Source of the DNA: Desulfobacterales bacterium
GTDB lineage: Bacteria > Desulfobacterota > Desulfobacteria > Desulfobacterales > JAHEIW01
Direction: 5' to 3'
Length of the DNA stretch: 64,000 nucleotides
Assembly (NCBI GenBank): GCA_030066985.1
Contig: JASJAN010000035.1
Location: 1-64,000 of the forward strand
Shown here: positions 15,181 to 29,685 of the stretch, one piece after another
How the letters are laid out: each line of letters opens with the position of its first letter
How positions within the stretch are numbered: position 1 is the stretch's first letter
Program-made: the position numbers and the translations under genes
The notes under the pieces: generated by a model
What the model was told of the DNA's origin: nothing
What the model saw: only the letters and a program-made list of their open reading frames with translations
Databases searched by the model: none

Positions 15181-15372
15181 TGATATGTCAAATCCCAAAT
15201 TTCAATTTCCCCGATTTTAATCGTTGCCTTGTCCTTTACTTTGTAAACAAAAACAGCCACACACAGGTCTAACAAAACCAGTAACAGTGGCCATTTTGCA
15301 TTGCTTGACACCCAATTGGCCAAATCTTATGTTTACCGTGTGCATATTTGCATTTAAGGATGCGAAACTGTG

Positions 15373-16515
15373 ATGAAATCAATACAAAAAATAAAATCAA
15401 TTGGCATAGTTTCAGCTATATTGGCAGCTTTCTGGTTTACGGCCTGTAAAACAACACCGCAGCCCAGCTCGCCGACAATTCCGCAGCCGCAGACTCAAGA
15501 GACCGACCAGAAGGCACCAGCGCCACCAGCATCTGAAAACCGCAAGCCGGATTCAGCCGGAGCACAGCAGGAGTCACAGGCGCGTCAGAAAAGCAGTCAT
15601 GAATCCAAGCAGCCTCCTGAGCAAACGTCAACAGAAACTGCGGTTTCTCAGCCGGCAGCATCCAAACAGACAGATCCTTCCCGTTCAGCGCAATCCACTC
15701 AAAAAGCGGACGCCGGTCAACCCAAAGCGCCAACCACCGCAAAAGGTAAATTGGACATGGCCCGGGAAGATTTGCGCGTCAGCGAAGCCACCGAACAAAA
15801 AATCGCGGACAAGCTGGAACAGCTCAAAAAATCCGGCAGTGCCTCAGACGAGGATATTCGCAATTATGAAATCTATCATGAACGCGTTGAGGCCATGGTG
15901 GCCGAACATCGTAAGAGAGTAGAAGATATGGAGCGCGCTTATCGCCAGCATACGCCACAAGGAAAACCATCATCTCAGACGCAAGCCGGCAAAGGGCCGT
16001 CTGCTTCGGATGAGACCATGCCGGAGGGGCAATACAGCCAGGATCAAGTGGCCGAACTGGATCGTCAGCTCAGCGCCTCTCTCAGCCAATTTGATACCAT
16101 GCTACTCAAAGAGATGGAAACGATTGAAACTCAGTCTGAAGCCAAAATGCGAGATCTGGCGCAAGAAGCAGCTGAGGCTGCCAAACGGTTAAAGGCAAAA
16201 GGTATCGATCTGGGAAGTAAAGAATCGGAATCATCGGATGGGACTTCGGAGGAAAGTGCGGAGAATCAAGAGGCATCGGGCGAACAAGATGGCTCAGAAA
16301 CCGAACAGGGTGACGTCGATGGTGCAGTGGCCGCCAGTGATCAACCGTTAGGCGAAGGTTCGGGTCCAAAGGGGGGCCGGGGGAGTCGTTACAGCAAAGA
16401 GGACGATGATATCGTTGCCCGGCAGCTGCGCGAGGCTGCTGAAAATGAAACTGATCCAGAGCTCAAAGAAAAGCTTTGGAAAGAATATGAAGACTACAAG
16501 AAAAACACACAATAA
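15373..16515 (+). CDS. Putative lipoprotein with Pro/Gln/Glu-rich and coiled-coil regions
   Basis: The 380-aa protein has an N-terminal signal segment ending in FTAC, giving a lipidated cysteine at residue 25. Residues about 26-125 are low complexity (Pro, Gln, Ser, Ala). The middle (about 125-280) is charged and predicted coiled coil. The tail is acidic and Gly/Ser-rich with an RQLREAAENE helix. I recognise no family. The start is ATG 15373; GTG 15370 is immediately in front of it. It is the first gene of the kinase/vWA locus and probably a periplasm-facing structural component. Confidence 0.7.
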   Translation: MKSIQKIKSIGIVSAILAAFWFTACKTTPQPSSPTIPQPQTQETDQKAPAPPASENRKPDSAGAQQESQARQKSSHESKQPPEQTSTETAVSQPAASKQTDPSRSAQSTQKADAGQPKAPTTAKGKLDMAREDLRVSEATEQKIADKLEQLKKSGSASDEDIRNYEIYHERVEAMVAEHRKRVEDMERAYRQHTPQGKPSSQTQAGKGPSASDETMPEGQYSQDQVAELDRQLSASLSQFDTMLLKEMETIETQSEAKMRDLAQEAAEAAKRLKAKGIDLGSKESESSDGTSEESAENQEASGEQDGSETEQGDVDGAVAASDQPLGEGSGPKGGRGSRYSKEDDDIVARQLREAAENETDPELKEKLWKEYEDYKKNTQ

Positions 16516-16616
16516 TCAGGCTGATAGAAACATTAACCATAAACATAACAGCGCTTCCATGCCCGGCAAAGTCGCTCTGAGGCGCGACACGGAGCACTGG
16601 TAAGGATAAATATAAA

Positions 16617-17843
16617 ATGAAAAAAAATGCGCTATATTGCCTTTTCATATTGGTGATCCTCATTGCGCCATGGGGTTGCGCCACTTACAATGCCCAAAAG
16701 GTGGGCCCGACCGCAATTGAGCAAGCCACAACGGAAATTCCGGAAGCGCAGCTGCTTGACGTTGGTATAATGGTTTTTGAATCCAAAGAGCTCACACCGG
16801 AAGTGGCAAAAAAAGAGGGCACCAACTCAAATATCCGCAATGCTGAAACGCATTTTATTCCTTATCATCTGAAAAACACACTGCACCAGAGCAGCCACTG
16901 GGGTGCCATCCAAGTAGTACCGGCTGAGACAAACAGTGTTGATTTATTGGTTAAAGGCAAAATCCTCGAATCCAATGGTGAGCATCTGGTACTGGAAATT
17001 GATGTGGTGGATGCCACCGACATGCGCTGGTTTAAAAGGACGTACCGCGCCGAAGCGTCGGAAACGTATTATTCCGGGAACAGGGCGGGAGAAAAAGATG
17101 CTTACCAGGACCTGTACAATACCATTGCAAATGATATGGCCAAATACAAAATGAAGCTCAAAGTTTCCCAAATTGAAAATATCCGCACGGTGGCTAAGCT
17201 CAAATTCGCGCAGGAGTTTGCGCCGGATGCATTTGAAGGTTATTTGACGACAGATAAAAAAAAGCGTTTGAGCGTCAATCGCCTGCCGGCGGACTATGAC
17301 CCCATGATGGAGCGCCTGCTGCAAATTAGAGAGCGAGAATACATGTATGTGGATACGCTCAACCAGCAGTATGAAAACTTTTATGCTGAAATGTGGCCCG
17401 CTTACGAAAATTGGCGTCAGTTGAATTTAACCGAGCGCGAAGCCGTTAAAAAGATCAAACGGGAAGCAATGACCCGTCAATTGGTCGGCGCACTTTTGGT
17501 TGCCGGAGCGATAGCGGCCGGTTCACGGGATGCCAACATGGCCCGTGCGATGGCACCGGCAATGGTGCTTATCGGGGGGCAGGTGTTTATAAGCGGCTGG
17601 AATGTGTCAAAAGAAGCCGACATGCATAAAGCCGCCATCGAAGAGCTCAGCGAATCATTCGGTGCCGAAATGCAGCCGGTAACCATGGAATTTGAAGGGC
17701 AGCAATACAAATTGACTGGAACCGCCGAAGAACAGTTTAAAACTTGGAAAACCATGCTGCGCCAGATTTATTTTGCCGAAACAGGCTTTGATCCAACCCC
17801 TCCAACCGATCAAGCGGAAACGGAACAAGACCAAAAGCTTTGA
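16617..17843 (+). CDS. Putative lipoprotein of unknown function
   Basis: This 408-aa protein has a signal segment ending APWGC (lipidated Cys at 21), so it is probably envelope-anchored. Residues about 45-180 look like a mixed alpha/beta domain (LLVKGKILE..., LVLEIDVVDATDMRWF). A hydrophobic Ala/Gly-rich stretch near residues 280-325 could insert in a membrane or pack in a core. No known family is recognised. It lies 101 bp after the other lipoprotein and upstream of the kinase gene. Confidence 0.65.
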   Translation: MKKNALYCLFILVILIAPWGCATYNAQKVGPTAIEQATTEIPEAQLLDVGIMVFESKELTPEVAKKEGTNSNIRNAETHFIPYHLKNTLHQSSHWGAIQVVPAETNSVDLLVKGKILESNGEHLVLEIDVVDATDMRWFKRTYRAEASETYYSGNRAGEKDAYQDLYNTIANDMAKYKMKLKVSQIENIRTVAKLKFAQEFAPDAFEGYLTTDKKKRLSVNRLPADYDPMMERLLQIREREYMYVDTLNQQYENFYAEMWPAYENWRQLNLTEREAVKKIKREAMTRQLVGALLVAGAIAAGSRDANMARAMAPAMVLIGGQVFISGWNVSKEADMHKAAIEELSESFGAEMQPVTMEFEGQQYKLTGTAEEQFKTWKTMLRQIYFAETGFDPTPPTDQAETEQDQKL

Positions 17844-18101: not shown

Positions 18102-20513
18102 ATGTTGAATTTAGCAAAAGACCAAGTATTGCTTTCCCGCTTTTGCCTGCTGGAGATGATCGGCGAGGGCGGCATGGGACAGGTCTGGCTAGTTTGGGAT
18201 CAAGAGCTTGAAATCCAAATTGCCGCAAAAATTTTGCACCCGCAGATCGTCTCCGATCAGAATCGCGTCAAACTATTAAAAAATGAATGTCGCAATACCC
18301 GTCGATTGGCGCACCCTAATATTGTACGCGTATTTGATTTTCATCGATCCGCCGATTTGGCCTTCATCTCCATGGAATATGTGGACGGCCAAAATCTGAA
18401 CGATTACCGCAGCCCATTGGAACACATCAGCTTTTCGCAGCTCATCAAGCTGATAAAGCCTGTCATCAATGCCCTTGGGTATGCCCATGAAATGGGTCTG
18501 GTTCATCGAGATGTCAAAGCCGCCAACATCATAATTGATCGGCAGCATGTTCCACGCCTGACCGACTTTGGCATCGCCGGCGTTTTCAAGTCAGGCCAGC
18601 AGGCAATGGAAATTACCTCCGGCGGCTCTCTGTTTTGCATGAGCCCGCAACAATTGGGACATCATCGCCCAGCTCCATCCGATGATATGTATGCCCTCGG
18701 TGTGCTGCTCTATCAAATGTTGACCGGATATCCGCCGTTCTATCCGGATATCACCCGAGAGCGAATTCGGCATGAGGTTCCGGCTCCCGTCAATCAACGG
18801 CTACAGCAACTTGCCATCGATGCAACTATTCCGGATTCAATGGAAAACTTGATTGCCGAGATGTTGGCCAAAAATCCTGCTGATCGCCCGGCGCGCATGC
18901 AGGAAATTGAAGCCTTCTTTGATCGGATGTCGAGCCCTGTGATCAGTCAAACGATAGCACCGCGAAGTCCAGCGCCAAAGGTCATCAGTTCGAGGCCAGC
19001 TTCAGATCCTGCGGAAATGATTGCGCCGGTGAGCGTAAGTCCGATAAAACACCATAAGGGTTTGCGGCAAAGACCACACGCCAATTTGGTCAAAGGGGCG
19101 GCCTTGATGGTTGCTTTTGTCGTGCTGCTGGCCGGTGGATTTTGGTTGTGGCAATATCTGGGCGGTCTGAACAAAAAATCAACCCCACCGAAAAGCCCGG
19201 TGAGCAAGCAACAACAAGCGGAATCTGAAAAGACGTCCACACAGACTGAGAAGGCACCGGTAAAAACGCCGCATCCGCCACAGTTGGCTGCTGATAAAAA
19301 GAAAGCAGATAACAAGCTGGGCGAATATATGCAGCTTAAACAGAAATTGGAGACCAAAGGTGCTTCTCAATGGGGTAACCAGATTTATGCTGATATGTCG
19401 CAATTGGCAGATGAAGCTGATCAGTTTTTAATCGAAAAACAGTATGCCCCGGCAGCCGCAAAATATGCAGCCGCTTCGGCTAAAGCGCAAGAGTTGGTCA
19501 ACCAGATGGCGCCGGTTTTAAAAAGACTGCTAATCGAAGGTCAAGATGCACTCGAAGAAGGCAACGGTGAGTTGGCTGAAGAAAAATTTTCGATCGCTTT
19601 GCTAATAGATCCGTCCAATGCAACGGCCAAAAAAAGTTTGCAACGCGCGAAAAACACCGAGGCCATTATGCAGTTGCTCGAATCCGGAAACCGCCATGAA
19701 GCTGCAGGTAATCTTGCTGCCGCCTCAACCGACTACCAGGACGCGGTCAAACTGGATCCGGCTTCAAAGAGAGCCCAGGCATCTCTGACACGGGTCGACG
19801 AACAGCTCCGTGAGCAAAAATACCAACAATTAATGTCAGAAGGTCTGACAGCCGTCCATCGCAAAGACCATCAACTGGCTCGCCAAAAATTGCGCCAAGC
19901 CCTGAAAATCCGGCCAGAATCGCGTGAAGCCAGAGAATCCCTTGCCCAGGTGGATCAGTCTATCCGTCTGTCACAGATTGAAACCTATCGCAGACAGGCC
20001 GCTGCTTCAGAAAAGTCTGAAAACTGGCAGCAGGCCTTTAGCGCTTACCAGAAGGTTTTGGAAATCGACCCTAATGTAGCGTTTGCCGTGCAGGGCAAAC
20101 AACGCGCATCGAAACATATGCGTATTAATAAACGCCTCGATTTCTTTCTGCAACAGCCGACTGCTCTGGAATCGGATCGTCAGCTTGAAAATGCTCTTGA
20201 GCTAGTTGCCGAAATTGAGGCGCTGAAAACGCCCGGGCCGCGCCTTAGAGAACAATTTAATCAGCTGGTAGGTATCGTTAATGCGGCTAAAACGCCGGTA
20301 AAGATAGTCCTTGAATCCGATACTTTCACCGATGTTGCCGTATATAAAGTTGGCAAGCTAGGCCGTTTTAGTAGCCGAGAGCTGCGTCTGCGACCCGGCT
20401 CTTATACCGTTGTGGGGACGCGGAACGGATACCAGGATGTGCGCAAAAAAATCATCGTCAAACCCGAGCAAGGGCCGATACGGGTCATTATTCGATGTGA
20501 GGTTAAAATTTGA
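18102..20513 (+). CDS. Transmembrane serine/threonine protein kinase (PknB-like) with TPR-like and PEGA-like extracytoplasmic region
   Basis: The 803-aa protein starts with a complete Hanks-type kinase domain (residues about 13-275): glycine loop GEGGMGQVW (21-29), ATP lysine K43, catalytic HRDVKAAN (D137), DFG (155-157), and GGSLFCMSPQQ in the activation/APE position. It is an RD kinase, so activation-loop phosphorylation is expected. A Ser/Pro linker and one membrane segment (about 332-353) follow. The outer part has about three helical repeats of TPR type (LLIDPSNATAKKSL, VKLDPASKRAQASL, LKIRPESREARESL, LEIDPNVAFA) and a C-terminal PEGA-like domain. It overlaps the next gene by 4 bp. Phosphothreonine made here could be read by the FHA protein at 24843. 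Confidence 0.9.
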   Translation: MLNLAKDQVLLSRFCLLEMIGEGGMGQVWLVWDQELEIQIAAKILHPQIVSDQNRVKLLKNECRNTRRLAHPNIVRVFDFHRSADLAFISMEYVDGQNLNDYRSPLEHISFSQLIKLIKPVINALGYAHEMGLVHRDVKAANIIIDRQHVPRLTDFGIAGVFKSGQQAMEITSGGSLFCMSPQQLGHHRPAPSDDMYALGVLLYQMLTGYPPFYPDITRERIRHEVPAPVNQRLQQLAIDATIPDSMENLIAEMLAKNPADRPARMQEIEAFFDRMSSPVISQTIAPRSPAPKVISSRPASDPAEMIAPVSVSPIKHHKGLRQRPHANLVKGAALMVAFVVLLAGGFWLWQYLGGLNKKSTPPKSPVSKQQQAESEKTSTQTEKAPVKTPHPPQLAADKKKADNKLGEYMQLKQKLETKGASQWGNQIYADMSQLADEADQFLIEKQYAPAAAKYAAASAKAQELVNQMAPVLKRLLIEGQDALEEGNGELAEEKFSIALLIDPSNATAKKSLQRAKNTEAIMQLLESGNRHEAAGNLAAASTDYQDAVKLDPASKRAQASLTRVDEQLREQKYQQLMSEGLTAVHRKDHQLARQKLRQALKIRPESREARESLAQVDQSIRLSQIETYRRQAAASEKSENWQQAFSAYQKVLEIDPNVAFAVQGKQRASKHMRINKRLDFFLQQPTALESDRQLENALELVAEIEALKTPGPRLREQFNQLVGIVNAAKTPVKIVLESDTFTDVAVYKVGKLGRFSSRELRLRPGSYTVVGTRNGYQDVRKKIIVKPEQGPIRVIIRCEVKI

Positions 20514-22951
20514 ATCGAACTTATAAAATCATAGACCACAGCGGCGATCGGACCGTTGCGACGGAAGATTTTCCGATTGTCATTGGTGCAGGCCCGGCCG
20601 CTGCGATCATCATCTCAGATGTTGAAAAGGCGACTGAGGCTGCCTTCATCGGTCTATCGCAGCAGCGACCCTTCGTGCAGGCGGGCCACAGCGATGTGGT
20701 CGTCCGCTACAACGGGCGAAAATTAAAAGACAGTGTCTGGCTGATGCATGGTGACCGGCTTGAGGTCGGCAGCTGCAGAATACAATTTGAAGCCCGTGGC
20801 AATGATTTTATCATCCGAGTTGCGGGCCAAAAAATGGCAGATGTGCCGACCCCAACATCGGACAGCATCCGCTCACCTGAAAAGGCATTGAAAATCGACC
20901 CTGTGTCCTTTCGGTCCAAACGAAGACAAAGACGCGCCGGAGCCATACATCGCTATCGCAGATGGCTTAGCATGGCGGTTGGTCTGTGTTTACTCCTACT
21001 GCTGGCAATCGGCTGGTTTGTTTTTACCGCCCGTCAAATTACGATTCAAATTGAGCCACAGCCGGAGGAAGTTTCGATCGGCGGCAGTCTGCTAGCCCCT
21101 CGCTTTGGCGGCCACTTTCTGCTAAGGCCAGGCAAATACACCCTCATTGCCACTAAAGACTGCTATGCTGACATGAAAAAGGCATTCGAGGTGGGAGCCG
21201 AAAAAAACCAAACAGTCCAATTTGAAATGGAAAAACTTCCCGGACGCATTTCCGTACAGGCCTATCCAGAGGGCCAAGCGGGTGTGCCGCTGACCGGTGC
21301 ACGGCTCATAATTGACGGACAAGAAGTTGGCGCCACCCCAATTTTAAACCTGGCGGTTAAAGCGGGTCGGCGAGTGCTGGAAATTCAGGCCGATAATTAT
21401 CAGGATGTCAAAACCGAAGAGCAAATTATCGGTTGCCCAGAGAAACAGACGTTTGAATATACATTGATCCCCGGCTGGTCGGATGTGTTCATCAGCTCGA
21501 TTCCAGAGGGCGCTGCGGTATCGATAGACGGCAAGCCCGCCGGCAACACGCCTATAAAAGTGGAGTTGCCCGAGGGCACTTATCGCCTCAAAATAAGTGC
21601 TGAAGGATTTAAACCCTGGCAAAAGCAACTGGCTGTGGTGCCCAATCAACCCCAATCCATAAAAGATGTCCAATTGCAACCGGCCGACGGCACCTTGGCT
21701 TTGCAAACCACACCATCCGGGGCCAATGTGACCATTGACCGGAAATTTGCCGGGAAAACCCCTTTAACCATTTCTCTACAGGCAGATGTCCAGCATGAAG
21801 TTCAAATCTCCAAGGCGGGTTATGAAAACTTGGCCCGAACTGTTCAGGTGGCAACCGGCAAAAAGAAAACACTGGCCATTCAATTGAAACCGGAGTTCGG
21901 GGTTATTCAATTTGTGGTTGAGCCACCTGATGCTCAACTTTTTGTCGATGGGAAGAATCAGGGTCCCGTACCGGCCAAATTAAATTTGTTGGCAATCGGT
22001 CACCAGCTGGAGCTCAAAAAACCAGGATATGAAACCTTCCGAACCCGGATCACCCCCCGGCCTGGCTTTCCGCAAATCGTAAACATCACCTTGAAGCGAA
22101 GCCATTCAGCTCCTGCGGATCCGGAAGGCGTTATCACGGCCCAAAATGGCTACAAGCTAAAACTGGTAGAACCGCAGTCGTTCATCATGGGATCATCGCG
22201 ACGCGAACAGGGCCGGCGCACCAACGAAACCCTCCGCAATATAAATTTGCAGCGGCCGTTTTATATGGGCTTGAAAGAAGTAACCAACCGGCAGTTTAAA
22301 CAGTTTTTAGCCAGTCACAATTCCGGGGCCTTTAACGGCCAACCGTTATCCCTGGAAGATCATCCGGTCGTTCAGATTACATGGCAGCAAGCAGCCTTAT
22401 TCTGCAACTGGTTGAGCGCGAAGGAGTCTTTGCCGCCGGCATACGTGAAAAAGGGCGGTCGCCTCGTCGCTGCCGACCCTATTGGCATCGGATACCGGCT
22501 AGCCACCGAAGCCGAATGGGAGTATTGTGCCCGCTTCTCAGGTAATTCAGCCAGCCTCAAATACCCATGGGGAAATCTATTTCCACCGACGACGCCTTCG
22601 GGCAATTATGCCGACGCATCTGCCAAAAAGTTGTTGGCCACTGTGCTCGAAAAATACAATGACGGTTTCCCGGGATCGGCGCCACCGGGCAAATTTAAAG
22701 CCAACGACCTGGGGTTGTTCGACCTGGGTGGCAATGTAGCCGAGTGGTGCCATGACTTTTACTCGATTTATACCTATAATAGCAGTAAGACCGATGTCGA
22801 TCCCACCGGACCCTCACAGGGAAACCATCATGTGGTCAAAGGATCGAGCTGGAAACATGCCAGCATAAGCAATTTGAGGCTGGCCTATCGCGGATATAGC
22901 AATGGAAAACGCCCGGATCTGGGGTTTCGTGTATGCCGGTACGCAAAATGA
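20510..22951 (+). CDS. Membrane protein with FHA-like, multiple PEGA and C-terminal FGE/sulfatase-modifying-factor-like domains
   Basis: This 813-aa protein starts with TTG overlapping the kinase stop (TTGA), so the two are translationally coupled. Residues 1-105 resemble a degenerate FHA domain (LMHGDRLEVGSCRIQFE). One membrane segment lies at about 153-173. Several PEGA-type repeats follow (VSIDGKPAGNTPIKVELPEG; VTIDRKFAGKTPLTISL; LFVDGKNQGPVPAKL). The C-terminal about 270 residues form an FGE-sulfatase domain (FIMGSSRRE, YRLATEAEWEYCARF, GLFDLGGNVAEW, LGFRVCRY). The cysteine pair of true formylglycine-generating enzymes is not seen in the final helix region, so a binding rather than catalytic role is likely. 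Confidence 0.82.
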   Translation: MNRTYKIIDHSGDRTVATEDFPIVIGAGPAAAIIISDVEKATEAAFIGLSQQRPFVQAGHSDVVVRYNGRKLKDSVWLMHGDRLEVGSCRIQFEARGNDFIIRVAGQKMADVPTPTSDSIRSPEKALKIDPVSFRSKRRQRRAGAIHRYRRWLSMAVGLCLLLLLAIGWFVFTARQITIQIEPQPEEVSIGGSLLAPRFGGHFLLRPGKYTLIATKDCYADMKKAFEVGAEKNQTVQFEMEKLPGRISVQAYPEGQAGVPLTGARLIIDGQEVGATPILNLAVKAGRRVLEIQADNYQDVKTEEQIIGCPEKQTFEYTLIPGWSDVFISSIPEGAAVSIDGKPAGNTPIKVELPEGTYRLKISAEGFKPWQKQLAVVPNQPQSIKDVQLQPADGTLALQTTPSGANVTIDRKFAGKTPLTISLQADVQHEVQISKAGYENLARTVQVATGKKKTLAIQLKPEFGVIQFVVEPPDAQLFVDGKNQGPVPAKLNLLAIGHQLELKKPGYETFRTRITPRPGFPQIVNITLKRSHSAPADPEGVITAQNGYKLKLVEPQSFIMGSSRREQGRRTNETLRNINLQRPFYMGLKEVTNRQFKQFLASHNSGAFNGQPLSLEDHPVVQITWQQAALFCNWLSAKESLPPAYVKKGGRLVAADPIGIGYRLATEAEWEYCARFSGNSASLKYPWGNLFPPTTPSGNYADASAKKLLATVLEKYNDGFPGSAPPGKFKANDLGLFDLGGNVAEWCHDFYSIYTYNSSKTDVDPTGPSQGNHHVVKGSSWKHASISNLRLAYRGYSNGKRPDLGFRVCRYAK

Positions 22952-22953
22952 TC

Positions 22954-23193
22954 TAAATTGAGCGTTTCAAATTAAAAATATGGAGAATACTTTTCTTTGA
23001 GGAATTCTATCGATTTAACATTTTTAATTTGAAACCCAGCGGGGTTGCTGATCTTACTCCGCCTCAGGCGGATTAGATGCCGTTCCGCATAGTATACTAT
23101 AGCGGAACAACATCTGCCGTGTAGCTGCGGCAATCCTCCAGAGGCGGATCTTCGACCTCGACAAGCGCTCAACTTAGACCCTAAATTGAGCGT
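22954..23193. repeat. Nested palindromic element after the PEGA/FGE gene
   Basis: Outer arms GTTTCAAATTAAAAAT (from 22966) and ATTTTTAATTTGAAAC (to 23033) flank the first part. CTAAATTGAGCG occurs at both ends of the gap (22954 and 23182). Inside lie TCCGCCTCAGGCGGATTAG (about 23056), also found exactly at about 49053, and a palindrome GTTCCGC...GCGGAAC centred on GTATAC. Confidence 0.65.
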
Positions 23194-23211
23194 TGATGAG
23201 AGTACAAAGAT

Positions 23212-23514
23212 ATGGACGCAAAAAAACGTTCATCTTTCAAATGGTTGGCCATCGTCATGTTTACGGCAGTGGCTTTTGTGGTGATGGCATATCAACTTCT
23301 TCCGGCCGCTGCTGCAGAGGTGATCGTCGCACAGAGCACAAACCAAACAACCGCACCTGAGGGGGAAACATCGTCATCTGAAAGTCAGCCCACTGAATCG
23401 AAAGCAGCAGAAGAAAAAGAAACGAACGCAACCAAAAACAGAAAACTAAAGGATTTCCGCCCCTCAGAAAAAATCGAAGCGGAGCAGGCAGTGGACTTCC
23501 CCTATGACATTTAG
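23212..23514 (+). CDS. Small secreted or membrane-anchored acidic protein
   Basis: The 100-aa protein has an N-terminal hydrophobic segment (residues 11-35) that is a signal peptide or single anchor. A low-complexity Glu/Ser/Thr/Lys linker follows, and the C-terminal motif is RPSEKIEAEQAVDFPYDI. A similar ending (RPSEK...AVxFPxDI) seems familiar to me from small proteins of related bacteria, but I cannot verify that here. It lies between the PEGA/FGE gene and the channel-type gene and may be an accessory subunit of that complex. Confidence 0.65.
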   Translation: MDAKKRSSFKWLAIVMFTAVAFVVMAYQLLPAAAAEVIVAQSTNQTTAPEGETSSSESQPTESKAAEEKETNATKNRKLKDFRPSEKIEAEQAVDFPYDI

Positions 23515-23656
23515 TTTTCAAATAGTAATGGCCTTTTTCCCGATGAGCTGTGTTCTCCGCGTTTTTAAGCTTTCGACGTACGACCAGTACGCCGAAAGCT
23601 TAAAAACTTGTGCGGCCGAGCTCATCAAAAAAAATTCTCATTTCTATTTTGAAAAC
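23514..23656. repeat. Nested palindromic element, copy A of the CCCGATGAGCT type
   Basis: Three nested arms are visible. The outermost is GTTTTCAAATAG (starting at the last base of the upstream stop codon) with CTATTTTGAAAAC. The middle is GATGAGCT/AGCTCATC. The inner is a perfect 15-bp GTTTTTAAGCTTTCG/CGAAAGCTTAAAAAC, with GTAC at the tip. The middle part matches the element at 46929-47074. Confidence 0.75.
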
Positions 23657-23689
23657 AACCCGATATAAATTAAAAAAACTTTGGACCGA

Positions 23690-23859
23690 AAACCTCAGAT
23701 TTTGTTCGAGGGCAAGGCACAAGACGATGAAAAAGCGGAGCGTACACGTCAGTAGGTGAGCATTTTGAAGCGTCTTGATGCACGCCTTTGATGTACATAA
23801 AATAGATGTGCAATCCATTTAGCCTGGGCAACACAGCCATCGGGCAAAATATGAGGTTT
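23690..23859. repeat. Nested palindromic element of the GCAAGGC / AATCCATTTA type, copy 1
   Basis: Outer 24-bp arms (AAACCTCAGATTTTG... at 23690-23713 and its partner to 23859) pair at about 20 positions. Inside lie GCAAGGCACAAGACG, then AAAAGCGGAGCGTACACG, then a conserved tail GATGCACGCC...AATCCATTTAGCCTGGGCA. The tail and the GCAAGGC block match the element at 49015-49168. The AAAAGCGGAGCGTACACG block matches the one at 57322-57467 in reverse. Confidence 0.75.
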
Positions 23860-23893
23860 AGAAACCCATAATATAACCTATGGTTTAAAAAGT

Positions 23894-24697
23894 ATGAAAA
23901 AAACATTCCCTTTTTCGTTTGAGTTAATCTACCAAGTTTTTTCTTTGATTGTGATCGTCATCATTGTGCATGCCATCTATGTGGCGGTAATTCGGCCCAA
24001 AGCCGATGCCATTTTAGAAAAGCAGGCTATTGCGATGGCCGAAGACAAATCACAGGTGATGGAGCGCTCGGTGTTCGTCCTCATTCGTGATTACGAACAG
24101 GAAGCTTGTTTTATTCTGATGTTTTGGGCAATGGCCATTATGGGATATAAGGCCTTTAAAACGTCACGCCAGCGCGCTTTGCTTCAAATGGATCTGATCC
24201 CTTTGGCCGAGGGCGTGCGCATTTTACCGGAAGACACCCGGGATGTATCCCGGCAGATTCAAGCCCTGCCGGCTCAGCAACGCGAAGCGCTGTTGCCCAG
24301 AGCGTTGTTGGCTGGTTTGCAACGATTCAGCACTACCCGCAATATTCAGGATGTGGCCAGCGCCACCCGCGCCTATTGCGATTCGGAGGCCGAACGTCTC
24401 GAGTCTGAACTATCCATGATTCGTTATATCGCTTGGGCCATTCCATCGGTTGGCTTTATTGGAACGGTGCGGGGCATTGGCGATGCACTGGGCCAGGCCC
24501 ACAAGGCCATCGAAGGCGATATCTTTGATGTCACCCGCAGCTTGGGCGTGGCCTTTAATTCAACTCTAATAGCACTGCTGATCAGCATTGGCTTGATGTT
24601 TTTGCTGCACCAATTGCAGCAAATGCAAGAGCGCTATGTGCTGGATTCGCAAACCTATTGCGATGAAAACCTTATCAGTCATCTATACGTTAAGTGA
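23894..24697 (+). CDS. MotA/TolQ/ExbB-type proton channel family protein
   Basis: The 267-aa inner-membrane protein has four hydrophobic segments (about 11-33, 70-86, 178-195, 218-240). TM3 begins WAIPSVGFIGTVRGIGDALG (181-200), the ExbB/TolQ signature. TM4 has GVAFNSTLIALLISIG, with the family threonine (T224). Such proteins form pentameric proton-driven stators around a dimer of single-pass B subunits (ExbD, TolR, MotB). No ExbD-like gene is present, but the two vWA proteins downstream have matching N-terminal membrane segments. It probably energises the complex encoded here. Confidence 0.85.
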   Translation: MKKTFPFSFELIYQVFSLIVIVIIVHAIYVAVIRPKADAILEKQAIAMAEDKSQVMERSVFVLIRDYEQEACFILMFWAMAIMGYKAFKTSRQRALLQMDLIPLAEGVRILPEDTRDVSRQIQALPAQQREALLPRALLAGLQRFSTTRNIQDVASATRAYCDSEAERLESELSMIRYIAWAIPSVGFIGTVRGIGDALGQAHKAIEGDIFDVTRSLGVAFNSTLIALLISIGLMFLLHQLQQMQERYVLDSQTYCDENLISHLYVK

Positions 24698-24776
24698 GGT
24701 GTCAAGTGTCAGTGTTCAGGTGTCAGCATCAGAAATATCTGAATTTCAACTCGATCAAACCTGACACCTGACACCT
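24698..24776. repeat. Heptad-built inverted repeat (GGTGTCA units)
   Basis: The left arm reads GGTGTCA, AGTGTCA, GTGTTCA, GGTGTCA (24698-24725). The right arm, CCTGACACCTGACACCT (24760-24776), is its complement. It begins directly after the channel gene's stop and precedes the FHA gene. Confidence 0.75.
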
Positions 24777-24842
24777 AATGGCATAATTATGAATGCTGAG
24801 TTTAAAGCTTGTAACCTAACAAAAACTTAAAGAAACGAATGC

Positions 24843-26270
24843 ATGAACATGAGCGTATTAGGATTAGAGTTGAGCGATGCCGGTATTCTGGTCGCCGGAG
24901 GCGATCCACCCGGACTGCTAAAACTCGATGGTAACAGCGTTGAAAGCCCCGGGTTTGCTCTACCAGAAAAAAAAAGGTTGGTCGTCGGCATAGCAGCTGA
25001 AAGAAAAGCACACCAATATCCCCGTCAGATTCTCAATCATTTCTGGGACCAATTAAATACCGAACCCCTGGAGCAGCACATTCCATTTGCACACAACCAC
25101 GCTGAAATTGCCTTCGAGCATCTTGCCCATATCTTTCAGAACGTCAAACCGCACGGATCCGAAATGATTATAGCCGTGCCGGGGTTTTATACACACAAAC
25201 ATTTGGGATTGATTTTGGGGATTACGAAAGAATTGGCCATCCCTGTAAAGGGTTTTGTTCCGCTCGCTGTCGCCGCAGTTCCGAATCAGCTGCCACAGGG
25301 GTTGTTGCTGCACCTGGACCTGCATTTACAGAGATTTGAACTCACCTATCTTCAGCGCAAAGACCAAATAAGCCGTGAGGAATCACTGTCCGTTGAAGGC
25401 AGCGGTCTGAGTGCCCTATTCCGAAGATGGGTGGATGCCATCGCAGAAGAATTTGTCCGCCATACCCGTTTCGATCCCCTGCATCAGGCCACCACCGAGC
25501 AAGAGTTATACGACCGCTTACCTGGAATTCTCACGCAGCTCAACCAAAAGCCCTCAGTTCATTTTGAAATGACAGGCGGTTCCAAGGTATATCACATAAC
25601 ACTGACAACAGAGTTGTTTTCAGAAGTCGCAGCACCTATTTTCGATAAAATCCGCAGCCTGATAGATCGGTTCTGCGATCGCTATGGTAAACATGCCCCG
25701 GCAAGCGTTTTGTTGATCACCGATCGACTTGCTCGTATACCAGGAATCCACAATGTGTTGACCGGCAGTCATCATCGCAACGTTATCACGTTGCCCGCCG
25801 GGGCGGGTGCTCTGGGAGCCCTATGGTTTTTGGATGCCCTGCGCGATCAACGACATGAGAGCAGCGCTCCGTTTCTGATCACCCGGCCCTTGCCGCATGA
25901 GCAGCAAATTTCGGTTGAGGCGCCCCGTCAACCGGCTGAAAGGCAACAGCGGCCCACGCATATCCTTTATCGCGACATCGCCTATCCGATTGCGCAGAAA
26001 CCGCTGCCAATTGGCTTAGAAACACCTCCAGACGGGTATGGCATTAAAATCCGCGGTCAAATTGCCGGCGTGTCTCGTAAACACTGTTCGGTTCAACGGA
26101 GTGGTAATACCGTTGTTTTAAATGACCACAGCACCTACGGTACTTACGTAAACGAAAAACCGGTGGCTGGAAAAAAGAACTTGGAGCTTGGCGAGGTGAT
26201 TCGTGTCGGCACACCGGGCGAAAATCTTAGATTAATTGCATGTTTGGATGGCGAAACCGATGAAACGTAG
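24843..26270 (+). CDS. Hsp70/actin-like (ASKHA) protein with C-terminal FHA domain
   Basis: This cytoplasmic 475-aa protein has an N-terminal actin/Hsp70-fold region (LGLELSDAGILVAGG at the start; LVVGIAAERKAHQYPRQILN; MIIAVPGFYTHKH; LPAGAGALGALWFL), resembling DnaK-like ATPases but without full motif conservation. The C-terminus (about residues 385-475) is an FHA domain with VSRKHCSVQ and DHSTYGTYVN, the phosphothreonine-binding signature. It likely docks on phosphorylated partners of the transmembrane kinase and links them to the channel. It overlaps the next gene by 11 bp, indicating translational coupling. Confidence 0.78.
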   Translation: MNMSVLGLELSDAGILVAGGDPPGLLKLDGNSVESPGFALPEKKRLVVGIAAERKAHQYPRQILNHFWDQLNTEPLEQHIPFAHNHAEIAFEHLAHIFQNVKPHGSEMIIAVPGFYTHKHLGLILGITKELAIPVKGFVPLAVAAVPNQLPQGLLLHLDLHLQRFELTYLQRKDQISREESLSVEGSGLSALFRRWVDAIAEEFVRHTRFDPLHQATTEQELYDRLPGILTQLNQKPSVHFEMTGGSKVYHITLTTELFSEVAAPIFDKIRSLIDRFCDRYGKHAPASVLLITDRLARIPGIHNVLTGSHHRNVITLPAGAGALGALWFLDALRDQRHESSAPFLITRPLPHEQQISVEAPRQPAERQQRPTHILYRDIAYPIAQKPLPIGLETPPDGYGIKIRGQIAGVSRKHCSVQRSGNTVVLNDHSTYGTYVNEKPVAGKKNLELGEVIRVGTPGENLRLIACLDGETDET

Positions 26271-27348
26271 AGCCGTCAACGTATTTAACCTATCTTTTTT
26301 GGATATCATAACCTGCGGGCTGGGGGCTGTCATCCTTTTGTTTGTGTTGGTCAATGCCAAAAGCGCCGCCCAGCGGGATTCGATTACCTCGGATTTTCGT
26401 GCAGAAGCCGAGCGTGTTGAACAGGAAGTCCTCGATGCCAAAAAAGAGCTGGTCCTCGCACGCAATACATTAGAGCAGACCGAAGCGCAACGGGTGCGTA
26501 CAGAGGGCCTTTCTCGCAAAATCATTGAAATACTGGAACAAAAAAAAGTCGAGTTGTCTGATCGTCAAGAAGATACGCTAGCGACCACCGAACATGTCAA
26601 TAAATTAAAAGCAGATCTGAAATCAATAGAGGAAGAGCTCAAACGCCTGAGAGCCGGGGCCAAGACCGAGGATGATCAAGGCTCCCGGCTGCGAAAATTC
26701 CCCGGAGAAGGAGACCGTCAGTATTTAACCGATCTGAAGATGGGCGGCAAGCGGATATTTATCCTGGTGGATGCCTCCGCCAGCATGCTGGATGAAACGG
26801 TCGTTGGCGTCATCCGGCGCCGCAACTTGAGCGCCAAAGAAAAACTGAAATCCCCTAAATGGCAACAGACGGTCGCCACCGTCAACTGGCTTGCCACACA
26901 GCTGCCATCGACAAGCCAGTTTCAAATTTACGCCTTTAATGAAGATGCCAGTCCCTTACTTGCTGGCACGGCAGGAGCCTGGTTGGATGCTGGTAATGTG
27001 GACCAATTAAACCAGGCCGCCAACGGCATTCGCAGCGTCATTCCGCAAAAGGGTACCAGTCTTTTGAATGCCATCACCGCCCTTCGCACGATGAAGCCTG
27101 CTCCGGACAATATTTTTTTGCTGACCGACGGCCTGCCGACGATGGGAAAGGGTAAACCCTGGCGCAAACGGGTGTCCAGCGATAAGCGCCTGAGTCTTTT
27201 TAAAGCTGCCATTGGTGAATTACCAAAGGCGCCGGTTAATGTCATATTATACCCGATGGAAGGTGATCCTCTGGCGGCCGATGCCTATTGGCGCTTGGCC
27301 AAGCGCACCCGCGGATCATTTTTTTCACCGTCAAAGGATTGGCCTTAA
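26260..27348 (+). CDS. vWA-domain protein with ExbD/TolR-like N-terminal membrane segment (paralog 1)
   Basis: I set the start at ATG 26260 (MKRRAVN), which matches the MKR start of the paralog; the frame is open further upstream to a TTG. The protein is 362 aa. Residues 7-31 (NVFNLSFLDIITCGLGAVIL and onward) form one membrane segment whose Asp15 sits where ExbD/TolR/MotB carry the proton-binding aspartate. A coiled coil follows (about 35-135), then a vWA domain with an intact MIDAS start, DASAS (171-175), KGTSLLNAI and LLTDGLP. The vWA domain should lie in the periplasm. It may act as a mechanical or ligand-binding B subunit of the channel. Confidence 0.82.
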   Translation: MKRRAVNVFNLSFLDIITCGLGAVILLFVLVNAKSAAQRDSITSDFRAEAERVEQEVLDAKKELVLARNTLEQTEAQRVRTEGLSRKIIEILEQKKVELSDRQEDTLATTEHVNKLKADLKSIEEELKRLRAGAKTEDDQGSRLRKFPGEGDRQYLTDLKMGGKRIFILVDASASMLDETVVGVIRRRNLSAKEKLKSPKWQQTVATVNWLATQLPSTSQFQIYAFNEDASPLLAGTAGAWLDAGNVDQLNQAANGIRSVIPQKGTSLLNAITALRTMKPAPDNIFLLTDGLPTMGKGKPWRKRVSSDKRLSLFKAAIGELPKAPVNVILYPMEGDPLAADAYWRLAKRTRGSFFSPSKDWP

Positions 27349-27478
27349 GTTCGGCGAAAGGCTCAGGGCGCAAGGATGACGGTAAAAACAATAACATTTT
27401 TAGCCTTGGGCCGTATGCCGTGTGCCTTGGACCAGTTGGGGTTGTTCAAGAGAAAATCGAAATCAAGTAGTTAAAATC

Positions 27479-28480
27479 ATGAAAAGACCTCGTAAAAATA
27501 TCCAGATTTTTAGCTTATCCTTCTTGGATTGCATTTGCTGTGGTTTCGGTGCGGTAATTTTGCTGTTTGTTCTATCTAAATTCGCCGAACCCATGATCAT
27601 TGAAGAGGTTAAGGAAGATCTGGAAGCCAAGATTGTTAAACTGGAAGAAGAGCTCGTCGAGATTCGGGGGGAAACAGCGATACTCAACCGGGAATTGACA
27701 GCGAAAAAAGAACAGTTGTCAGAAGAAAAAATCCGACTGGCTCGTCTGCAGGGCGACATATCCAAAATCAAGGGTCAATATGCGGCATCAAAAGATCGGG
27801 CCCAGGTCCAGAATATTATCGAGGGGCAGTTGGCCCGTGCAATGCAGGAATTAACTGAAGAAATGCGGCGTCTGCTCAAGACACAACCCCGTAAAATCGA
27901 AAGTTCCATCGGTGGCATTCCAGTAGACAGCGAGTACATCATTTTCATCATCGATACATCCGGCAGTATGCAGCGCAATGCGTGGTCTCTGGTCCAGCGA
28001 AAACTAAGAGAAACGCTGAATGTATACCCGAAAGTTAAAGGCATTCAGATCATGAATGATATGGGTGAATACATGTTTTCGCAATATCGCGGCAAGTGGA
28101 TTCCAGATTCACCGGCCCGCCGGCGAGCCATTATTTCGCGGCTCAGTTCATGGCGCGCTTTCAGCAACTCCAGCCCGGTGGAAGGCATCACAGCCGCCAT
28201 TCGGACCTTTTATGCCACAGACAAAAAAATAAGCCTGTATGTTTTTGGAGATGAATTCAGTGGGCCGCGCATGCAGCCGGTTGTTGATGCCGTAGATCGT
28301 ATCAACAAGCGAACAAAAGACGGTTCCCGGCGGGTGCGAATACATGCCGTCGGCTTTCCGGTGGTAATGGGAAAAACAAACATGCGGGGAAATACGGGAG
28401 AACGCTTTGCGACGCTGATGCGCATTTTGTGTCACAAAAACGGCGGCACTTTTGTGGGGCTAAATTCAACGAGACCATAG
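27479..28480 (+). CDS. vWA-domain protein with ExbD/TolR-like N-terminal membrane segment (paralog 2)
   Basis: This 333-aa paralog of the preceding gene product has the same plan. The membrane segment is FSLSFLDCICCGFGAVILLF (11-30) with Asp17, followed by a coiled coil (about 40-135) and a vWA domain with MIDAS DTSGS (159-163). The start MKRPRKN is chosen by analogy with MKRRAVN. Two different B-type subunits next to one channel gene would fit a heterodimeric B subunit in a 5:2 stator. The 130-bp gap between the two genes shows no other feature. Confidence 0.82.
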   Translation: MKRPRKNIQIFSLSFLDCICCGFGAVILLFVLSKFAEPMIIEEVKEDLEAKIVKLEEELVEIRGETAILNRELTAKKEQLSEEKIRLARLQGDISKIKGQYAASKDRAQVQNIIEGQLARAMQELTEEMRRLLKTQPRKIESSIGGIPVDSEYIIFIIDTSGSMQRNAWSLVQRKLRETLNVYPKVKGIQIMNDMGEYMFSQYRGKWIPDSPARRRAIISRLSSWRAFSNSSPVEGITAAIRTFYATDKKISLYVFGDEFSGPRMQPVVDAVDRINKRTKDGSRRVRIHAVGFPVVMGKTNMRGNTGERFATLMRILCHKNGGTFVGLNSTRP

Positions 28481-28483
28481 AAA

Positions 28484-28625
28484 GGTTCTGGGTTCAGAGG
28501 TTCAGGGTTCAGGGTTAAGTTATTTTGGCCACTGGCTTCTCGGTCCCAGTCGTTAACCGCTTTATACTACAAGGTGCAGCTTGAAAACCTCAACAAGCAA
28601 CCTTTGAACCCTGAACCTTTGAACC
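28484..28625. repeat. Heptad-built inverted repeat (GGTTCAG units)
   Basis: The left arm holds GGTTCTG, GGTTCAG, then shifted AGGTTCA, GGGTTCA (28484-28511). The right arm (28599-28625, AACCTTTGAACCCTGAACCT and onward) is complementary. It begins 3 bp after the stop of the second vWA gene. Confidence 0.7.
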
Positions 28626-28694
28626 AGTCGATTGAACCGCAATACCAATAATATTTTGGCAACTCCTATTCAAAGGATATAGGCGACAAAACAA

Positions 28695-29195
28695 ATGAAC
28701 CTGAAATGCCCCAAATGCAACCAGGCGTTACCGGAAGTCAAAACGTTCAAGTATCGTTTTTGCCCGCATTGCGGAGCCGAAATGGCCCCTGAACCAGAGA
28801 AACTCGATGAGGCCTATTTGACCATACCGCCCGATTCACCGTTGCCGCCGGCAGACCAAAAGCCTGATAATGCAAAGGCCAAAACGGACCATAAATTGGC
28901 TGAGGCCGTGCGGTTGGACGATCATACCATTGCGCCGCAACCCATCACCCCTCAAAACCGACCCTCCATCAAACCGCCGGCTCAACCCCCTCCGTCCAGT
29001 TTCTTCCGAACCCCGCCCTCAGAGAATTATCCGCCGCCACCCATACCCACCAAAAAGCAAGTTAAAAAAGCCCAGCCACCGCCACCAGAACCCTCCCCTA
29101 AAAAACCGACAAAAAACCATCAAAAGGTCATTATCGCTATTTTGATTTTACTGGCTTTGGTAATTTTAATATTAGGTGGGTTGTTTACCTTCTAA
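28695..29195 (+). CDS. Zinc-ribbon, proline-rich protein with C-terminal membrane anchor
   Basis: The 166-aa protein has an N-terminal zinc ribbon with two CxxC pairs (CPKC at 5-8, CPHC at 23-26), then about 100 residues rich in Pro, Lys and Gln. A single C-terminal membrane segment (about 145-164, IIAILILLALVILILGGLF) suggests a tail-anchored topology with the ribbon in the cytoplasm. It closes the kinase/channel/vWA locus and may be a scaffold. No specific family is recognised beyond the zinc-ribbon fold. Confidence 0.7.
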   Translation: MNLKCPKCNQALPEVKTFKYRFCPHCGAEMAPEPEKLDEAYLTIPPDSPLPPADQKPDNAKAKTDHKLAEAVRLDDHTIAPQPITPQNRPSIKPPAQPPPSSFFRTPPSENYPPPPIPTKKQVKKAQPPPPEPSPKKPTKNHQKVIIAILILLALVILILGGLFTF

Positions 29196-29295: not shown

Positions 29296-29685
29296 TTAAG
29301 TTTCACCGATAGTATGATATTCAATGAAGCGATCCAATTTCAGGCGTTGTTCAGATGTTAATTTTCCAAACTTCAATCCGATTTGCCGCATTTTGACGCT
29401 ACTGAAACTGAATTCACTCTTGATTTCAAAATCAGATATTTTTTTAAAGGGCACTCTATCCAGATAAAGCCCCGCACGACCCAAAATGATCTTTAGCTCT
29501 TTCGCACTTTCAAGCTTCTCATCGCCGTCGATATACCGGAACGAAAGGCCCCGGATACTGATATCTTTAATCTGACCCAATCGGCTTTCCTGATCAACCA
29601 GGGCCGCAAATGCACCTTCCGCAGCTTTGAACCGTTTTTGCTGTCGCCGCTCCGCTAAGATCTTAACTGCTGGCATCATCAACAC
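29296..29685 (-). CDS. PilZ-domain protein (probable c-di-GMP receptor)
   Basis: This 129-aa protein is a single PilZ domain. The c-di-GMP-binding motifs are an arginine-rich ERRQQKRF near residues 12-19 and DISIRG (D/NxSxxG) about 25 residues later. It may link c-di-GMP to the envelope system encoded next door on the other strand, but that is inference from position only. The first Met is used; a start at Met4 (MPAVKIL) is equally possible. Confidence 0.8.
   Translation of the reverse strand: MLMMPAVKILAERRQQKRFKAAEGAFAALVDQESRLGQIKDISIRGLSFRYIDGDEKLESAKELKIILGRAGLYLDRVPFKKISDFEIKSEFSFSSVKMRQIGLKFGKLTSEQRLKLDRFIEYHTIGET

Follow-up and report, generated by a model that had tools for sequence, protein, structure and literature searches.

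Analysis of a 64,000 nt stretch of DNA from a Desulfobacterales bacterium (GCA_030066985.1, contig JASJAN010000035.1, positions 1–64,000 of the forward strand; hereafter the window) showed a conserved gene cluster that probably encodes a trans-envelope proton motor of the 5:2 class (MotA/TolQ/ExbB), with a vWA1/vWA2 rotor, a set of envelope partners and optional kinase–FHA gating. To our knowledge, the output of 5:2 proton motors is known in few cases, and how they are switched is often not understood. New here are the complete set of conserved genes that accompanies a predicted motor core, two tail-bearing periplasmic proteins, a catalytically dead FGE domain, and the joint occurrence of kinase and FHA. 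The cluster points to the probable envelope partners of predicted TPH-vWA motors, and natural versions with and without the kinase/FHA module exist, so that deleting genes in a gammaproteobacterium that can be cultured could test both what the motor does and its control by phosphorylation. The genes of the cluster are:

15370–16515 (+): lipoA, a lipoprotein that has a long linker of low complexity and is conserved in its C-terminal tail
16617–17843 (+): lipoB, a lipoprotein with an AF2-predicted fold, encoded upstream of the kinase gene
18102–20513 (+): Ser/Thr kinase-TM-TPR-PEGA-like protein (Pkinase, E = 2.7e-47; kinase domain 1–300, TM 329–347)
20510–22951 (+): PEGA/FGE-like protein, with an FHA-like domain (1–110), a TM segment (153–171), five PEGA repeats (E = 1.8e-56) and an FGE-sulfatase match (E = 9.2e-41)
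23212–23514 (+): small secreted protein with a disordered middle and a conserved C-terminal tail
23894–24697 (+): MotA/TolQ/ExbB-type channel (MotA_ExbB, PF01618, E = 7.6e-14; 52 bits against a cut-off of 22.9)
24843–26270 (+): cytoplasmic Hsp70-like (ASKHA)/FHA protein, with a C-terminal FHA domain (E = 3.2e-9) and an Hsp70-like predicted fold
26260–27348 (+): vWA1, with a pore helix, a coiled coil and a periplasmic vWA domain with a MIDAS (weak Pfam VWA match, E = 1.4e-5)
27479–28480 (+): vWA2, of the same build (weak Pfam VWA match, E = 0.03)
28695–29195 (+): zinc-ribbon protein with a C-terminal TM segment, an accessory gene

Profile searches bore out the first-pass annotation in its naming and ordering of the genes between kinase and zinc ribbon, all on the + strand. 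The junction overlaps that it reported were also correct: the kinase and PEGA/FGE genes overlap by 4 bp (20510–20513), and the Hsp70-like/FHA gene and vWA1 overlap by 11 bp, provided that vWA1 begins with the ATG of the conserved MKRR, at 26260. This start, and that of vWA2 at 27479, are backed by orthologue alignments. The range first assigned to the system, 18102–29195, proved too narrow, as lipoA and lipoB (15370–17843) are conserved members of the unit. The zinc-ribbon membrane protein is present as described, but is restricted to close relatives. Just downstream of its gene, on the opposite strand, lies a gene for a PilZ-domain protein of the c-di-GMP receptor type (29296–29685, −).

The channel aligned with solved TolQ structures (E = 4e-4), with T191 and T224 falling on the pore threonine positions, and both residues were kept in 71 of 72 orthologues. 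Each vWA protein begins with basic residues, after which comes a helix with the pattern SFLDxxxCGxGAxxL. The TM aspartate was invariant in vWA1 (D23 in the 26236 numbering, 61/61 orthologues) and in vWA2 (D36 in the 27422 numbering, 54/54), as was the MIDAS motif DxSxS (61/61 and 54/54, respectively). No ExbD or TolR gene was found within the locus. In ExbBD, TolQR and MotAB, an Asp-bearing partner lies within the channel ring, and by analogy the vWA proteins would be the Asp-bearing partners inside the ring here. Because both vWA proteins are always present and differ from one another, a 1+1 rotor of vWA1 and vWA2 would be the simplest inference. The cluster shares its channel family, pore threonines and Asp-bearing partner helix with the ExbBD/TolQR/MotAB 5:2 motors, but its partners bear vWA domains and come from two different genes, whereas the partner in those motors carries an ExbD/TolR or OmpA domain. 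The proton-motor reading proposed in the first-pass annotation is thus well supported by the invariant aspartates, the pore threonines and the linkage of the vWA genes to the channel.

The motor core is not in itself new, since the excerpted text of PMC12204202 (Mol Biol Evol 2025) already predicts such a motor: a TolQ-like channel with a heterologous vWA pair, a TolR-like pore helix and a proton-binding Asp, in tight TolQ/vWA synteny and without TolR, for an Idiomarina loihiensis family of TPH-vWA proteins. With the motors predicted in those excerpts the present cluster shares the TolQ-like channel, the heterologous vWA pair, the TM Asp, the Thr ring and the absence of TolR/ExbD. The lipoproteins, the PEGA/FGE protein, the secreted tail protein, the Hsp70-like/FHA protein and the kinase module are present here and are not mentioned for those motors in the excerpts. 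An earlier statement that no such system had been described therefore holds for the full gene set and falls for the channel and the vWA pair with its Asp helix. In the open-licence literature, no description of the full gene set or of optional kinase control was found beyond the PMC12204202 core.

The same excerpts of PMC12204202 also describe TolA/TonB-like vWA transducers, which have an SHLS motif in the TM helix and separate TolR-like genes, and so raise an alternative arrangement in which vWA1 and vWA2 would bind to the side of the channel as force transducers, while the channel would use an ExbD/TolR encoded elsewhere. The transducers described there lie beside tolQR-like genes, and the present genome does have one ExbD gene. 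That sole ExbD gene, however, adjoins a different TolQ-type gene of its own, which led us to reject a TolR/ExbD encoded elsewhere as the channel partner. The invariant Asp is present in the helices of vWA1 and vWA2 alike, and no His for an SHLS motif was found in their TM segments. We consider a side-binding arrangement very unlikely and retain the vWA pair as the putative pore partners.

Relatives were sought by scanning GTDB genomes with the channel alignment, and at least 578 were confirmed. The best 80 of these at least 578 channel relatives came from Desulfobacterota, Gammaproteobacteria and Acidobacteriota, with the gene order lipoA, lipoB, kinase/TPR-PEGA, PEGA-FGE, small secreted protein, channel, Hsp70-like, vWA1, vWA2. 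Genes were then counted over channel-chosen loci, distant Gammaproteobacteria included, using only contigs that reached far enough. The PEGA-FGE gene was at the channel locus in 80/80, the TPR-PEGA part in 68/69, lipoB in 60/62, the Hsp70-like gene in 77/82, and lipoA, which is 61–86% identical in distant loci, in its conserved upstream position in 51/57. For vWA2 the count was 64/65, which may include vWA1 cross-hits; in the L084 genome, vWA2 sits on a separate contig. The first-pass annotation had set co-occurrence of the kinase, channel and vWA genes elsewhere as a test of its reading, and such neighbourhoods were seen across three phyla, vWA1 adjoining the channel in 74 of 75 loci.

As the locus set had been selected by the channel, co-occurrence was also counted genome by genome, in an even draw of 274 gammaproteobacterial genomes. 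The vWA pair was scored in 20 of them (18 by strong matches to vWA2, and G441 and G452 by the vWA1 and channel genes on their short contigs). Both the pair and lipoB were present in 18 genomes, the pair only in 2, lipoB only in 1, and neither in 253 (p = 5e-25). The Hsp70-like protein occurred in 11 of the 274, all 11 with the vWA pair (p = 1e-14). The system is rare, being found in 5/297 Desulfobacterota and, among 199 Acidobacteriota, in 1, the centre genome itself. Cross-phylum synteny and genome-level co-occurrence together exclude a chance origin of the cluster. These data support the locus as a conserved bacterial cluster whose vWA genes accompany the channel. Two departures from the usual layout were seen. 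In a close relative (L016, genome G004) the kinase gene is truncated and the locus ends after the channel gene, the remainder having perhaps moved or been lost, and in a distant gammaproteobacterial locus (L135) the channel gene is relocated behind vWA2 with the other genes in their usual order.

FHA domains occur on the PEGA-FGE protein (FHA1) and on the Hsp70-like protein (FHA2). Around half of the loci have no kinase domain and retain the TM-TPR-PEGA part of the same gene, which indicates that signalling is an optional module. Where an active kinase was present, FHA2 was found in 23 loci and missing from 0, against 10 with and 14 without where there was none (Fisher p = 8e-6, uncorrected for relatedness). 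The corresponding numbers for FHA1 were 25 with and 1 without, against 4 with and 24 without (Fisher p = 3e-10, likewise uncorrected for relatedness). A six-frame recount that mixed FHA1 and FHA2 matches was left out of these counts. Mapped on the channel tree, changes number 7 for the kinase, 5 for FHA1 and 3 for FHA2; the direction agrees, the independent changes being too few for a significant phylogeny-aware test. Kinase-less Desulfobacterota retain FHA2. In three loci with a kinase-less fused gene and FHA kept, a kinase is encoded elsewhere in the locus, either as an ORF of its own directly preceding the fused gene (L034, L036) or farther downstream (L045). A PP2C phosphatase is found in 15 loci, 13 of which have the kinase domain fused in the TPR-PEGA gene. 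The kinase–FHA link originally suggested is thus upheld in that an active kinase always comes with FHA2, but the kinase is not obligate, and many of the loci without it also have no FHA. Overall, the counts partly support kinase–FHA signalling as an optional module in which the kinase is evolutionarily tied to FHA. Five loci (L035, L037, L038, L054 and L070) have a kinase domain without the catalytic HRD motif and have lost both FHA domains, the pattern of a decaying kinase module.

Alignment of FHA2 showed that the Ser/His and GT-x-x-N positions are mostly kept and the canonical Arg mostly is not, while FHA1 is degenerate. From these alignments, only FHA2 appears able to read phosphothreonine. 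The N-terminal part of the Hsp70-like protein has a predicted fold (pLDDT 89) that matches DnaK nucleotide-binding domains (Foldseek TMt up to 0.80), and its glycine-rich phosphate loops are degenerate in the alignment.

The most stable part of the kinase gene is the periplasmic TPR-PEGA region, as might be expected if the system were a sensor and not a motor, with the proton channel and the vWA/PEGA domains reporting envelope stress to the kinase. Loci without a kinase nevertheless keep the channel, Asp, Thr and MIDAS invariant, which makes a sensor very unlikely.

Outside the motor core, two disordered periplasmic proteins, lipoA and the small secreted protein, have conserved tails. Strong conservation in lipoA is confined to the C-terminal ~35 residues (tail DDDIVARQLREAA-E-DPEL-LW-EY-YK). 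The tail of the secreted protein, F-x-P-[ST]-E-x-I-x(2)-[DE]-x(2)-V-x-F-P-x-D-I, is encoded directly ahead of the channel gene in no fewer than 54/71 loci. These features suggest that both tails are docking peptides. For lipoB, a sequence search against the PDB gave nothing useful. Its AF2 model (mean pLDDT 81) was closest by Foldseek to the flagellar LPHT ring, an H. pylori protein, the TolB N-domain and LptE (best E = 1.7e-5), a domain-level likeness with low TM-scores. In the PEGA/FGE protein, the PEGA and FGE-like domains noted in the first reading were found, together with the N-terminal FHA-like domain that it had overlooked. Across 72 orthologues, the stretch of the FGE-like domain aligned ahead of the C-terminal GFR motif lacks Cys, and a lone Cys column after that motif is occupied in 14/72. 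An active modifying enzyme was ruled out by the absence of the catalytic cysteine pair; judged by its sequence, the domain is catalytically dead, not a formylglycine-generating enzyme, and would have a binding or structural role.

Our best inference for the cellular task is that the machine exerts force, or adheres reversibly, at the outer membrane. One sub-case would be an adhesion or surface-motility machine, in which the vWA MIDAS and the lipoproteins would make and break substrate contacts as happens in Agl/Glt gliding, with the kinase as the switch. The vWA, PEGA and C-type-lectin-like FGE folds are all binding modules, and outer-membrane genes adjoin the Woeseiaceae-type loci, where a Gly-zipper/OmpA protein is encoded just downstream. 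No Glt/Cgl homologue, however, was identified in the core, and we regard this specific form of the motor as unlikely.

Parts of the cluster recur in other systems. The T9SS motor GldKLMN/PorKLMN likewise combines a periplasmic FGE-like protein with a proton motor, and the NCBIfam GldK model matched here (E = 1.2e-33), far below its cut-off; the motor subunits differ, and the FGE domain here is fused to PEGA and anchored in the inner membrane. In the Arn system of Sulfolobus, the vWA protein is a soluble regulator, unlike the vWA domains here, which are proposed to be the periplasmic motor output. Excerpts of PMC12852372 describe ArnA/ArnB/ArnC as regulating a motility machine with a Hanks kinase, FHA and vWA proteins, a set shared with the present cluster. 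The TerY-type triad joins a cytoplasmic TerY vWA protein with a kinase and PP2C, whereas here the vWA domain follows an N-terminal TM helix and PP2C is present in some loci only.

Zorya (ZorAB) also has a MotA-type channel with an Asp-bearing partner, and a Zorya-related defence system was weighed. PADLOC gave only a weak ZorA match for the channel (E = 0.037) and generic kinase matches, the kinase domains fitting defence-kinase models as most Hanks kinases do, and the candidate was rejected. The cluster has no ZorC, ZorD or ZorE, no OmpA-type ZorB or ZorB-type peptidoglycan domain, and no helicase or nuclease. The gene order is the same across phyla, the Desulfobacterota channels form one supported clade, and the flanks of the cluster in the window are sulfate-reduction genes. 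A defence function is barely credible on these grounds.

For the preferred reading, a proton motor, the following working can be proposed. Five channel subunits would surround a pore holding one vWA1 helix and one vWA2 helix. As in known 5:2 motors, protons would flow past the aspartates of the two helices and the threonine ring of the channel, making the vWA pair turn, and the coiled coils would pass this motion to the two periplasmic vWA (MIDAS) domains. These may act on the PEGA/FGE protein, lipoA, lipoB and the secreted tail protein, resulting in force, or in contacts made and broken, at the outer membrane. In about half of the lineages, the TM kinase, with its periplasmic TPR-PEGA sensor, would phosphorylate a threonine, and the FHA domain of the cytoplasmic Hsp70-like protein would bind that phosphothreonine, so gating or assembling the motor. 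It is conceivable, though we lean against it, that the cluster represents a functional class of its own, the sixth among trans-envelope proton motors, in which an asymmetric vWA1/vWA2 rotor acts on outer-membrane lipoproteins via conserved C-terminal tail peptides and is switched by an optional TM Ser/Thr kinase through a phosphothreonine-reading Hsp70-like adaptor. If so, it would be the first kinase-gated 5:2 motor.

Two further loci contain MotA-type channels with other partners. In L020 (3488–16050), the channel and two Asp-bearing pore-helix proteins, whose output domains were not recognised, lie beside a GAP1-N2 (GTPase-associated conflict system) protein. A Desulfobacterales locus (L019, 2575–10364) encodes PP2C, kinase, PP2C, FHA, a MotA-type channel and one Asp-bearing pore-helix protein, the output domain of which is not vWA (weak DUF5697), and so shows the same motor logic with a different output domain.
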